Source: an uncultured Prochlorococcus sp. (GTDB lineage: Bacteria; Cyanobacteriota; Cyanobacteriia; PCC-6307; Cyanobiaceae). Taken from it: DNA of 43,661 bases. Location: contig CACPKH010000011.1 of assembly GCA_902634515.1 (NCBI GenBank), positions 1 through 43,661 of the forward strand, given 5' to 3'. Positions 37,848 to 43,610 of this stretch are shown piece by piece. Made by a program: the position numbers and the translations under genes. Numbering within the stretch: position 1 is the stretch's first letter; each line of letters opens with the position of its first letter. The notes under the pieces are model-generated. The model was not told where the DNA came from. It did not search any database and saw only the letters and a program-made list of their open reading frames with translations.

Positions 37848-37908
37848 ATTTATTTTATGTCTTTTATCTTTACTGTAATTTTACTAACTACGCGAAACCC
37901 TACTTTTG

Positions 37909-38283
37909 ATGAACCTTTTTTCTTTTCTGTTAAGCATTGTTATTACTATCACTCCTCCTACAAGTTATAAATGCGATGGCGATTTACTAAAGGCGACTAT
38001 TAGAAATAATTTAAATGGTGACTTCGCTCAGATAACTAACTTAGAGGAGTTGGATGAAGGGGCAATTGTTGTTCTAGATGGGGAGGAAATAAATCTTATG
38101 CTGCCGGTTTCATTTCAAGCAGGTGAGATTAGCTTCACTGATAAAAAATGGTTATGGAGCTACCAGGACAATGAAAGAGGATTACATGAGACCAATCCGC
38201 GCTTAGCTCATCGCCTCCCAAATGGAGAGATAGTCGAGTACGACTGCGACCCATTTGTTGCAGATGACAATGAACTTTCTTAA
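37909..38283 (+). CDS. Small exported protein, unknown function
   Basis: 124 residues from the ATG at 37909; a TTG directly before it (37906) is an alternative. A short hydrophobic N-terminus (LFSFLLSIVITITPPTS) suggests export or anchoring. The mature part looks beta-rich: YKCDGDLLKATIRNNL, then EGAIVVLDGEEINLMLPVSF, FTDKKWLWSYQDNERG, and PNGEIVEYDCDPF. Two cysteines (near 22 and 115) could pair. The GEEINLMLPVSFxxGEISFTD pattern reads like a conserved small domain, but I do not recognise a family. Confidence 0.7.
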   Translation: MNLFSFLLSIVITITPPTSYKCDGDLLKATIRNNLNGDFAQITNLEELDEGAIVVLDGEEINLMLPVSFQAGEISFTDKKWLWSYQDNERGLHETNPRLAHRLPNGEIVEYDCDPFVADDNELS

Positions 38284-39347: not shown

Positions 39348-39587
39348 TTATTGCTTGAAATTTTTTCTTGCACATTTATTGGCTGAGGACTTTTCATCTT
39401 TACCTTTGTCTAATATTTGCTTTAAGGCACAGTCGCAGAAGCCTTCTATAGATTTTATTGGTACTCCTTCCATCTCTGGATTGGACTTTGCCGAAAGGAC
39501 ACATTCCTCAAATTGATCCTTAGGGTATGAAATAGCTGTCGGAGCTAAAACAAAATAAATGCAAAGGAAAATGATAAGTGACTTCAT
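39348..39587 (-). CDS. Small exported cysteine-containing protein, unknown function
   Basis: 79 residues. A signal peptide (LIIFLCIYFVLAPTAISYPK) precedes a short helical-looking mature domain with four cysteines: FEECVLSAKSNPEM, GFCDCALKQILD and SANKCARKNF. The spacing suggests two disulfides or a metal site and resembles small helical Cys proteins of the marine picocyanobacteria. I cannot name the family. ATG start at 39587. It is convergent with the rhomboid gene. Confidence 0.7.
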   Translation of the reverse strand: MKSLIIFLCIYFVLAPTAISYPKDQFEECVLSAKSNPEMEGVPIKSIEGFCDCALKQILDKGKDEKSSANKCARKNFKQ

Positions 39588-40358: not shown

Positions 40359-41141
40359 TCATTTAACCTGAAAAGTTACTCCCATTACTGCGGTTATATC
40401 TTTTTTTATGGTTCTAGTGTCATATGACCCATAGCTACTAACTCTTGTTGAGTTAGGAATTGTTATTTGAAATACTCCTGTATTCACTTTTTTAAGTGAG
40501 CCTACTGATGAGCCAGCTTCTCTCGCAATGGCTTCAGCACGAAGACGGGCATCTTTAGTTGCTTTAGAAAGCATGTCTATACGTTTTTCAGCCAGCTTTG
40601 AATATGTATATTCTGGACCATTGGGTTTAACTAAAACACCTTTACCAAGTAACTCTCCAATCTTTTGATGGGTTTTGTAAATAGCCCAAACATCATTACT
40701 GCCTATCCTTATCCATTGACTAGTTGTCCAAACTATTGATACTAATTCTCCATTCTCTGGATTCCTTACTTCATTATTCTTTGATTCTGCTGGCCATAAA
40801 TCTAATGAATGTTTTGAATTATTTTTAATACCATTCTCAGAAAGAAATGAAATTGTTTTATCCATGGAACCTTTAAGGTTGTTATATGATGAGATTTGTG
40901 ATTTGCCTGAACTTTCAACTTTAATTAGCCAAGTTGCAAGGTCGCTTTCGATTCGCTCAGTGCTTGTTCCAGTAACTGTAATTGAATTTTCAATAGATTT
41001 AATCCCTTTAACTAGAACGGTTGATGCTCCTATTAATCCTCCAAAGGAAAGAACCGTCATAGCAAATACAAGAGGAGGTGTTTTCTTTATTAAGGAAACA
41101 AATTTATTTGGAAAAGATTTGAACATAGAAACAAAAGCCAT
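40359..41141 (-). CDS. SIMPL-domain (DUF541) protein, membrane-anchored
   Basis: 260 residues. An N-terminal hydrophobic segment (PPLVFAMTVLSFGGLIGAST, residues ~22-41) acts as anchor or signal. The SIMPL domain spans the rest: SITVTGTSTERIESDLATW near 53-71 is the typical GxGxxxxxPDxAxxxLxV-like opening, and AEKRIDMLSKATKDARLRAE with AEAIAREAGSSVGSLKKV the characteristic helix. SIMPL proteins are periplasmic and implicated in oxidative-stress and envelope functions, but no activity is known here. ATG start. The gene is isolated on the minus strand. Confidence 0.85.
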   Translation of the reverse strand: MAFVSMFKSFPNKFVSLIKKTPPLVFAMTVLSFGGLIGASTVLVKGIKSIENSITVTGTSTERIESDLATWLIKVESSGKSQISSYNNLKGSMDKTISFLSENGIKNNSKHSLDLWPAESKNNEVRNPENGELVSIVWTTSQWIRIGSNDVWAIYKTHQKIGELLGKGVLVKPNGPEYTYSKLAEKRIDMLSKATKDARLRAEAIAREAGSSVGSLKKVNTGVFQITIPNSTRVSSYGSYDTRTIKKDITAVMGVTFQVK

Positions 41142-41311: not shown

Positions 41312-41719
41312 TCAATTAATTCTAGACTTTTTAATGAGTTCCTGAGGTAATTCTTTATTATTTTGACGATTGCATGGGACCCTTACTTCTTGATTCCAAG
41401 ACTTAACATAACCGGAATAGTTATTATTGCCAGGTATATATTCTTCATTATATTTAAGAACAAAACAATTACCACCTTCTACTCGATTAGGACATTTAAT
41501 GCCAACATACTCTTTCCAGTATCTGACATAACCAGGCGAGAGATAAGTTCCAGGTATATATTCTTCTTTGTTTTTAATTCGAAAACATGTTTTGTTTATA
41601 TATAGGGTTGAGTCTTTTAATTTCTTATATGGCTGCCTGATCTCAGAAGCTATTGAAAGAGAATTTATTCCGGTAGAACCAAAATAAAAAGTGAGAATAA
41701 ATAGATAGAAATTTTTCAT
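41312..41719 (-). CDS. Exported protein with two copies of a Cys-bracketed 32-residue module
   Basis: 135 residues. A signal peptide (YLFILTFYFGSTGINSLSIA) is followed by two tandem modules, C45-C76 and C85-C116, each exactly 32 residues and beginning and ending with Cys. I count 15 of 32 identical positions. Shared residues are CF near the start, EEYIPG at positions 8-13, GYV at 19-21, W at 24, V at 28 and the final C, so each module is probably closed by its own disulfide. The tail is polar (NKELPQELIKKSRIN). I do not recognise a named domain. It may be a small extracellular or lumenal binding protein. Confidence 0.72.
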   Translation of the reverse strand: MKNFYLFILTFYFGSTGINSLSIASEIRQPYKKLKDSTLYINKTCFRIKNKEEYIPGTYLSPGYVRYWKEYVGIKCPNRVEGGNCFVLKYNEEYIPGNNNYSGYVKSWNQEVRVPCNRQNNKELPQELIKKSRIN

Positions 41720-41901: not shown

Positions 41902-42819
41902 ATGTTGAATCTTCAGAAAACAATAACACAAGCCACGGCAACTATTGCTTCACTTTCTATAGGTTTAGGAAGTACTTTTATAGGATTGGGGAATCCTGTA
42001 AAAGCAAGTTCATATATGTATCAAGGTAAATGTGGTTTCCTTATGAGTTCTAATTTTACAGAAAAATGTAACGCATTATTTAGTAAAACAATGTTTACGC
42101 TTATGCCTAAAGGGTCTAGACAAATTAGGATTTGGCCTCAACAAATTTCGTATGTAGCTCTAGCAACTAGAAAAACTCTGAAAATGGATGAAGACTTGGT
42201 CTTATGGAAAAAATTAGCTGGAAAGACAGGCATCCTATGGTGGAAAAGAGATCGAATCCCTCAATGGGTTCTAGATGCTACAGCGAAGGAAAGTGAAGAT
42301 CACCAATTCAGCATAGGTTATGTGGATAGAAATAAGAAACCTCAGATTCTTCTTTTTGTCTTAAATGATCGAGAGCAAGCTTCAGGAATGATAAATATGT
42401 TGGAATCATATTCTGGACTTTCATTAGGACAAAATAGATTGCCAGGTTCTTCTTTGGGACCTACTTTGACAAGAAAATTGGCTAAAGAAGCAACTCGTAA
42501 AGCAAGAAGACTTGCAGGATTATGCTCTCAATATATGTTTGAGGATGCTGAACCTATTGCTTCTGAATTAGATAGTTATGTAGAAAATACTATTGAAGAG
42601 ATATCAATTTTTTCAGGAACTGAAGATTTGAGTAATAATTTATTAAATACTTTGAATCAAGCTATGAATTATTGTGATACTGAAATGGATAATGAAATTA
42701 TTGATGCACATAGAGCAAGAGAAAAGGCGAGAATAGAGCAACAATTACTAAGAGCAAAAGAATCTGAAGAACAACGTATAAAAGCAAGAGCTGCTTTTGA
42801 TATGCTCGCAGAAATTTAA
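41902..42819 (+). CDS. Exported protein with a coiled-coil C-terminus, unknown function
   Basis: 305 residues. An N-terminal signal sequence (ATIASLSIGLGSTFIGLGNP) ends near VKA-SS. The middle looks like a folded domain: YMYQGKCGFLMSSNFTEKCN with two Cys, SRQIRIWPQQISYVALATRK, KTGILWWKRDRIPQWVLDAT, HQFSIGYVDRNKKPQILLFV. The C-terminus (residues ~270-305) is a long charged helix, REKARIEQQLLRAKESEEQ. It is followed 8 bases later by a second exported-protein gene, so the two form an operon. I do not recognise a family. ATG start. Confidence 0.72.
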   Translation: MLNLQKTITQATATIASLSIGLGSTFIGLGNPVKASSYMYQGKCGFLMSSNFTEKCNALFSKTMFTLMPKGSRQIRIWPQQISYVALATRKTLKMDEDLVLWKKLAGKTGILWWKRDRIPQWVLDATAKESEDHQFSIGYVDRNKKPQILLFVLNDREQASGMINMLESYSGLSLGQNRLPGSSLGPTLTRKLAKEATRKARRLAGLCSQYMFEDAEPIASELDSYVENTIEEISIFSGTEDLSNNLLNTLNQAMNYCDTEMDNEIIDAHRAREKARIEQQLLRAKESEEQRIKARAAFDMLAEI

Positions 42820-42827
42820 TCTATTTT

Positions 42828-43610
42828 ATGAAGCCTTTCCTCTCAAAAACTTTATACCCTGTTTTAACGGTATTTGCATCGTTTGCCGTATTTGAATTTG
42901 CTTCATTAGCTAATCATCATGTAAGAACAAATTACAGTGTTCAAGATTATAATATTAAAATACAGGCTGAAGACTCTGGGAATAGAATAAAAGAATCATC
43001 TTCTGGATTCGTAGACACCAGAACAGGAGATATTATTGGAAAAGAATTAGATGAGAATGGTAACTTGAGAGATTGCACAATAGGAACATCGTCTTCTAGA
43101 AGGAATTTACCAAGTTGTAATGATATTATTGATCGCCGTGAAAAGGTATTATTAGACTCTAGAAATAGATCTAGATTTTTTCTAACAAATAAACTTTCTG
43201 GAAATAATATTTTTATACTCCCTAATGGCAGTAAGATAAGAGTTAAATCATCTGTAAAATATAATGATGAGACACAATATGGTAGAGGAGGTGGAGAGCT
43301 AATTATTAATGCATATGTAGAGAGAGTCAGTGCAACTTTACCAACCTTTGAAAACTTATTTATAAACCCAGGCTCAAGACTTGAAATTTCATTTTTAGAT
43401 GCTGATGATTTTGAATTACTTGATTCATTATCTATTCCTCTACATGTCGAAACAGGTTTATCAACAAATGTTAGTTATAAAAAGAAGGTTGGCTTGACTT
43501 CCTCAGATTTAATTGGCATGAAAGTTCAAGCAAGAATGCCAATTAGAAGTATAAGAGAATACAAACTGATAAGAAGGGTTTCTGTAGCAGCAAGGTTTGG
43601 AGAATACTAA
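42828..43610 (+). CDS. Exported or membrane-anchored protein, unknown function
   Basis: 260 residues. A hydrophobic N-terminal segment (LYPVLTVFASFAVFEFASLA) should anchor or export it. The rest appears beta-rich and arginine-rich: GFVDTRTGDIIGKELDENGN, CTIGTSSSRRNLPSCND with two Cys, NGSKIRVKSSVKYNDETQYG, GGGELIINAYVERVSATLPT, RLEISFLDADDFELLDSLSI and a final SIREYKLIRRVSVAARFGEY. It begins 8 bases after the preceding gene and is probably cotranscribed and functionally linked with it. No family recognised. ATG start. Confidence 0.72.
   Translation: MKPFLSKTLYPVLTVFASFAVFEFASLANHHVRTNYSVQDYNIKIQAEDSGNRIKESSSGFVDTRTGDIIGKELDENGNLRDCTIGTSSSRRNLPSCNDIIDRREKVLLDSRNRSRFFLTNKLSGNNIFILPNGSKIRVKSSVKYNDETQYGRGGGELIINAYVERVSATLPTFENLFINPGSRLEISFLDADDFELLDSLSIPLHVETGLSTNVSYKKKVGLTSSDLIGMKVQARMPIRSIREYKLIRRVSVAARFGEY

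Follow-up and report, generated by a model that had tools for sequence, protein, structure and literature searches.

A gene on the minus strand at 41312..41719 of the window, i.e., the whole 43,661-nucleotide stretch of uncultured Prochlorococcus DNA analysed here, encodes a small protein, most likely a soluble envelope protein with two hairpins that is related to zipper proteins of the outer membrane. Judged by sequence, the module from which it is built defines a family that is already known, uncharacterised and apparently wrongly named. The new element is the two-module architecture within this known family. We place the probability of the whole explanation, i.e., an exported envelope protein with a duplicated, disulfide-closed hairpin, whose usual anchor is missing and whose role is soluble and bivalent, at roughly 0.5. 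The structural and family part of this explanation is held with considerable confidence, and the proposal that the protein acts as a soluble, bivalent partner is put forward tentatively.

The Gene and the Parts of Its Product

The features of the gene are as follows, each with its basis.

41312..41719, minus strand: coding sequence of 135 aa with an ATG start; the coordinates include the stop codon (ORF listing)
41645..41719, minus strand: signal-peptide-like N-terminus, residues 1–25, MKNFYLFILTFYFGSTGINSLSIAS (hydropathy and the starts of relatives)
41492..41587, minus strand: module 1, C45–C76, CFRIKNKEEYIPGTYLSPGYVRYWKEYVGIKC (alignment and AlphaFold2 strands)
41468..41491, minus strand: linker PNRVEGGN, 8 residues (sequence)
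41372..41467, minus strand: module 2, C85–C116, CFVLKYNEEYIPGNNNYSGYVKSWNQEVRVPC (alignment and AlphaFold2 strands)
41315..41371, minus strand: C-terminal tail, 19 residues, NRQNNKELPQELIKKSRIN (no zipper match in Pfam)
41394..41467 (module 2) and partner 41514–41587 (module 1), minus strand: DNA direct repeat (repeat search)

The N-terminus has a lysine at position 2 and a mean hydropathy of 1.1 over residues 4–25, and the starts of the relatives are also signal-peptide-like. Cleavage would follow A24 or S25. The mature protein is about 110 residues long, of which the modules make up 64 (58%), and the remainder is an N-terminal spacer of about 19 residues, the 8-residue linker and the 19-residue tail. 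The original prediction, in which the modules formed almost the entire mature protein, overstated their share. Searches of Pfam and NCBIfam with the window protein gave no match above threshold, and the glycine zipper of the relatives (see below) is absent. No zipper remnant was seen downstream of the gene in the three minus-strand frames. Around the gene, Rfam gave no match; promoter-like sites nearby are not clearly commoner than in shuffled sequence, and no terminator-like site was found near it.

Family Membership and Spread

The window protein matches PHROG 767, labelled 'cAMP phosphodiesterase', with E = 1e-14 over two stretches; the record of phage P-SSM4 places its family gene in the cyanophage cluster T4-GC 330. 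The members of PHROG 767 and T4-GC 330 share with the window protein a signal peptide followed by a 32-residue module of the form C....Y.EEY[IV]PG....PGYV..W.......C. They differ in having a single module and, mostly, a C-terminal glycine zipper, in place of the two modules and zipper-less end of the window protein. The earlier view that the module belongs to no named domain is half correct, the family being known as PHROG 767 but uncharacterised. In the alignment of relatives, the invariant module columns are C, Y, E, P and G, and each of the 124 distinct modules extracted measures 32 residues from its first Cys to its last.

The family is widespread in Prochlorococcus, marine Synechococcus and cyanomyoviruses. 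A module profile matches 172 of 400 genomes of the same taxonomic family, and nearly all relatives from named genomes are from Prochlorococcus and Synechococcus. Outside that taxonomic family, a sample of the class gave only one match, a marginal one (E = 0.007). On the viral side, tblastn found 191 phage records with the window protein as query and 210 with a canonical relative, all of them cyanophages or marine phages by name; 208 of the 210 cover at least 80% of the one-module-plus-zipper query. The family gene comes after gp32 in P-SSM4 and after the single-stranded DNA-binding gene in S-RIM2. In viral contigs, 499 stretches matched when the alignment served as query, and none matched with a single-sequence query.

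Architectures of the Relatives

Canonical relatives consist of a signal peptide, one module, a linker and a glycine zipper of the C-x-E-G type, ending in G-C-x-x-x-G-G. Where these proteins continue from the module into linker and zipper, the window protein has only its 19-residue tail. The C-terminal part corresponds to Pfam PF05433, Rick_17kDa_Anti (glycine zipper 2TM; rickettsial 17 kDa antigen, SlyB type). Of 10 relatives tested, 6 score above the curated cut-off for this domain and two more fall just short of it (best E-value 1.2e-9). This domain is absent from the window protein. The canonical relatives also depart from PF05433 proteins in that their N-termini are not lipoprotein-like and the hairpin module lies outside the Pfam model. 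A second zipper subgroup, (b), has the C-terminus ...TTGGLIGGGIAAALSKKDAYGWSIPLGAVLGMGI..C.

A further group dispenses with the zipper. These module-only proteins, of about 70–90 aa, have a signal peptide, a [LI]TWxE-type stretch and the module, followed by a stop 1–3 residues past the second Cys. They occur in genomes of the Prochlorococcus family and in viral contigs (e.g., L201, L140, L191, L256–L260 and L262), and the two viral ones tested both match PHROG 767. Like the window protein, they are exported and zipper-less with a module of 32-residue span; unlike it, they carry one module, at the protein end, and a conserved [LI]TWxE-type N-terminus. In some of them, module positions 2 and 7 are W and position 12 is E rather than P. 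L264 (G343:C8:80494) shows one additional architecture, in which a single module is followed by a charged tail of some 45 residues that has no zipper.

Two modules were found in the window protein alone among 194 extracted ORFs. A second in-frame module pair was not present among the matches listed for the 400 genomes and for the re-listed multi-hit genomes. Since a two-module gene raises the match count of its genome, re-listing multi-hit genomes would expose one; the re-listing covered all such genomes other than those of the window's own genus, G040 and G042, whose matches had all been listed and lie far apart. Because the scans of genome contigs and viral contigs order their matches by likeness to the window protein, any relative with two modules should stand among the first; none was there. 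Thus, the variation in copy number that had been proposed as a check of the repeat was not found; the relatives carry one copy.

The Enzyme Name

According to the cyanophage records and PHROGs, the window protein and its family would be class-II cyclic-nucleotide phosphodiesterases. Most of the phage records listed (HQ317291, AY940168 and others) are labelled 'putative cAMP phosphodiesterases class-II precursor' or 'cAMP phosphodiesterase'. The label is at odds with the proteins themselves, and we consider the enzymatic reading very improbable. A Pfam phosphodiesterase domain is absent from 10 of 10 relatives and from the window protein. The class-II signature of PROSITE, HxHLDH, occurs in 0 of 145 relatives, as does HxHxDH. 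Histidine is missing altogether from the window protein and from 60 of the 145 relatives, and the invariant module columns do not make up a metal site. The name 'cAMP phosphodiesterase' is accordingly not supported by the family's sequences, and exported Cys-hairpin plus glycine zipper 2TM protein is the better description. Literature searches joining the label with cyanophage retrieved no paper. The vesicles of Prochlorococcus MIT9312 contain PMT9312_0858, which is annotated as a cAMP phosphodiesterase (PMC9298688) and, by that label, is a candidate member of the family.

Predicted Structure and Disulfides

For a canonical relative, AlphaFold2 (59 sequences) predicts one confident β-hairpin, 42–52/61–71, with block pLDDT values of 87–96, and a zipper of two helices at lower confidence. 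For the window protein, the predicted hairpins are 44–55/64–75 and 85–96/103–114. The core blocks of module 1 have pLDDT values of 85–91 and those of module 2 about 62–75; the lower confidence of module 2 is expected, because the prediction had no relatives aligned to it. The strand register would place C45 near C76 and C85 near C116, most securely for module 1. Pairing of C76 with C85 across the short linker is geometrically conceivable. Zipper-less one-module relatives in which the two module Cys are the only ones are found in hosts and in viral contigs, and within one chain of such a protein these Cys can pair only with each other. That the module is an exported, self-contained unit bracketed by Cys, as originally predicted, is supported by its occurrence alone in relatives, its constant span and, at the level of models, the hairpins. 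By sequence, the best PDB match had E = 0.37, in the range of chance matches, and Foldseek searches of the PDB with both models gave no match below E = 0.48.

The Duplication

C45–C76 and C85–C116 are each 32 residues long and align without gaps at 15 identities, as had been counted by hand, and all of the identities then named are found in the alignment. When module 2 was shuffled 100,000 times with its end cysteines fixed, 15 identities were never reached, the maximum being 13. A chance origin of the likeness is thereby excluded. At the DNA level, a direct repeat of 74 nt is 72% identical at a spacing of 120 nt, i.e., 40 codons (32 of module and 8 of linker). Across both modules in full, 62 of 96 nt are identical, with 21/32 at first, 25/32 at second and 16/32 at third codon positions. 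As third positions agree least, the duplication is old and has been under protein-level constraint, and it is no artefact of assembly.

Both copies keep the module cysteines, E8, Y10, P12, G13 and G19. From the family consensus, module 1 differs at E5K, Y6N and P31K, and module 2 at E5K, R7N and P18S. Position 5 is E in 95% of other modules, and the shared K is missing from the other 107 rows of a 109-module tree, which offers only a hint that the duplication took place within the window lineage. Dating the duplication by this tree was rejected: 32 columns lack resolution, and the branches leading to the two window modules are very long.

The same features allow an account in which the gene is a decaying paralog, i.e., a one-module-plus-zipper gene that lost its zipper, had its module duplicated and did not retain its function. 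Near-invariant positions are changed (Y6N and P31K in module 1, P18S in module 2 and E5K in both), the end branches of the window modules are very long, and the architecture occurs in no other sampled genome among the matches listed (400 genomes). Decay nonetheless seems unlikely: 135 codons are open behind a signal-peptide-like start, key module residues are kept in both copies, and agreement that is lowest at third and highest at second codon positions is what selection on the protein, acting through much of the period after the duplication, would be expected to leave. In addition, the zipper-less relatives form a subfamily, so that loss of the zipper need not mean loss of function.

Genomic Context and Probable Origin

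Three matches to the module lie in the window's own genome: two fall within the window ORF and one in a canonical paralog (L033:2678–3100, minus strand). The canonical gene is flanked by an EamA transporter gene and ruvA in 68 of 80 loci (L043–L122). In Prochlorococcus, the canonical one-module-plus-zipper gene, L033:2678–3100 included, is conserved between the EamA transporter and ruvA/rpsO genes.

The placement of this gene bears on whether the protein is a phage-related envelope protein. Under that proposal, the family moves between hosts and T4-like cyanophages and alters the host surface during infection, e.g., excluding other phages, the soluble double form being a host interference protein or decoy. 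It draws on the 210 phage records, the position next to gp32 in the records viewed, the 499 viral-contig stretches and the presence of module-only proteins in both hosts and viral contigs. However, the EamA/ruvA position marks the canonical gene as a stable host gene that was not chiefly brought in by phages, many host genes are copied by phages, and no link to phage resistance was found in the window. We regard the proposal as improbable.

The window gene adjoins a SIMPL (DUF541) gene at 40359–41141 on the minus strand. In G002, a genome from this genus, that SIMPL gene has upstream of it, where the window has the two-module gene, a one-module-plus-zipper gene of subgroup (b) in the same orientation, and an additional ORF and about 1.5 kb come between the two. 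The G002 module shares 19 of 32 residues with module 1, including GTY.SPGYVR.W, and 16 with module 2. The window gene probably belongs, in derived form, to this G002-type lineage of one-module-plus-zipper genes, and the data fit an ancestor with a zipper in which the module was duplicated and the zipper lost. A SIMPL neighbourhood conserved beyond the genus was rejected: of 28 family genomes examined, 17 have SIMPL orthologues, whose positions are unrelated to those of the module genes except within the same genus, and the distance between SIMPL and module genes is not constant in other genomes.

Around the window gene are further exported-looking small and mid-sized proteins without Pfam domains, at 37906–38283, 39348–39587, 41902–42819 and 42828–43610; the one at 39348–39587 has 79 aa and several Cys.

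Proposed Role

Following Sec export, the two cysteines of each module would be oxidised to a disulfide. The glycine zipper 2TM domain of canonical relatives would enter a membrane, probably the outer membrane, and oligomerise there in the manner of SlyB-type proteins, and the membrane-held zipper would display the hairpin. The zipper of E. coli SlyB is of the glycine type. For the canonical form, its zipper suggests an envelope protein that is oligomeric and inserted in a membrane. The window protein, with two hairpins and no anchor, would be a soluble and likely bivalent form in the periplasm or the vesicle lumen. It may bind the same partner as the canonical hairpin, perhaps the anchored paralog of its own genome. 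SlyB has been shown to make rings enclosing outer-membrane proteins (PMC13067283). A broader and quite speculative scheme, to which we give little weight, is that marine cyanobacteria and T4-like phages share an unrecognised hairpin-plus-zipper family that remodels or guards the envelope in infection or vesicle release, the window protein being a soluble form with two hairpins that would cap the anchored form or compete with it.

Implications

Taken alone, the window gene is a minor variation. More is gained from recognising that an enzyme name unsupported by the sequences is attached to a family found in 210 cyanophage records and in many Prochlorococcus genomes. The name is also in use in the literature, as in the vesicle proteome paper (PMC9298688; putative membership, by label). 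Redescription as hairpin-plus-glycine-zipper proteins suggests roles in the envelope, in vesicles and in infection that are open to testing, and the natural one-module, two-module and zipper-less forms would be ready constructs for separating the role of the hairpin from that of the anchor.
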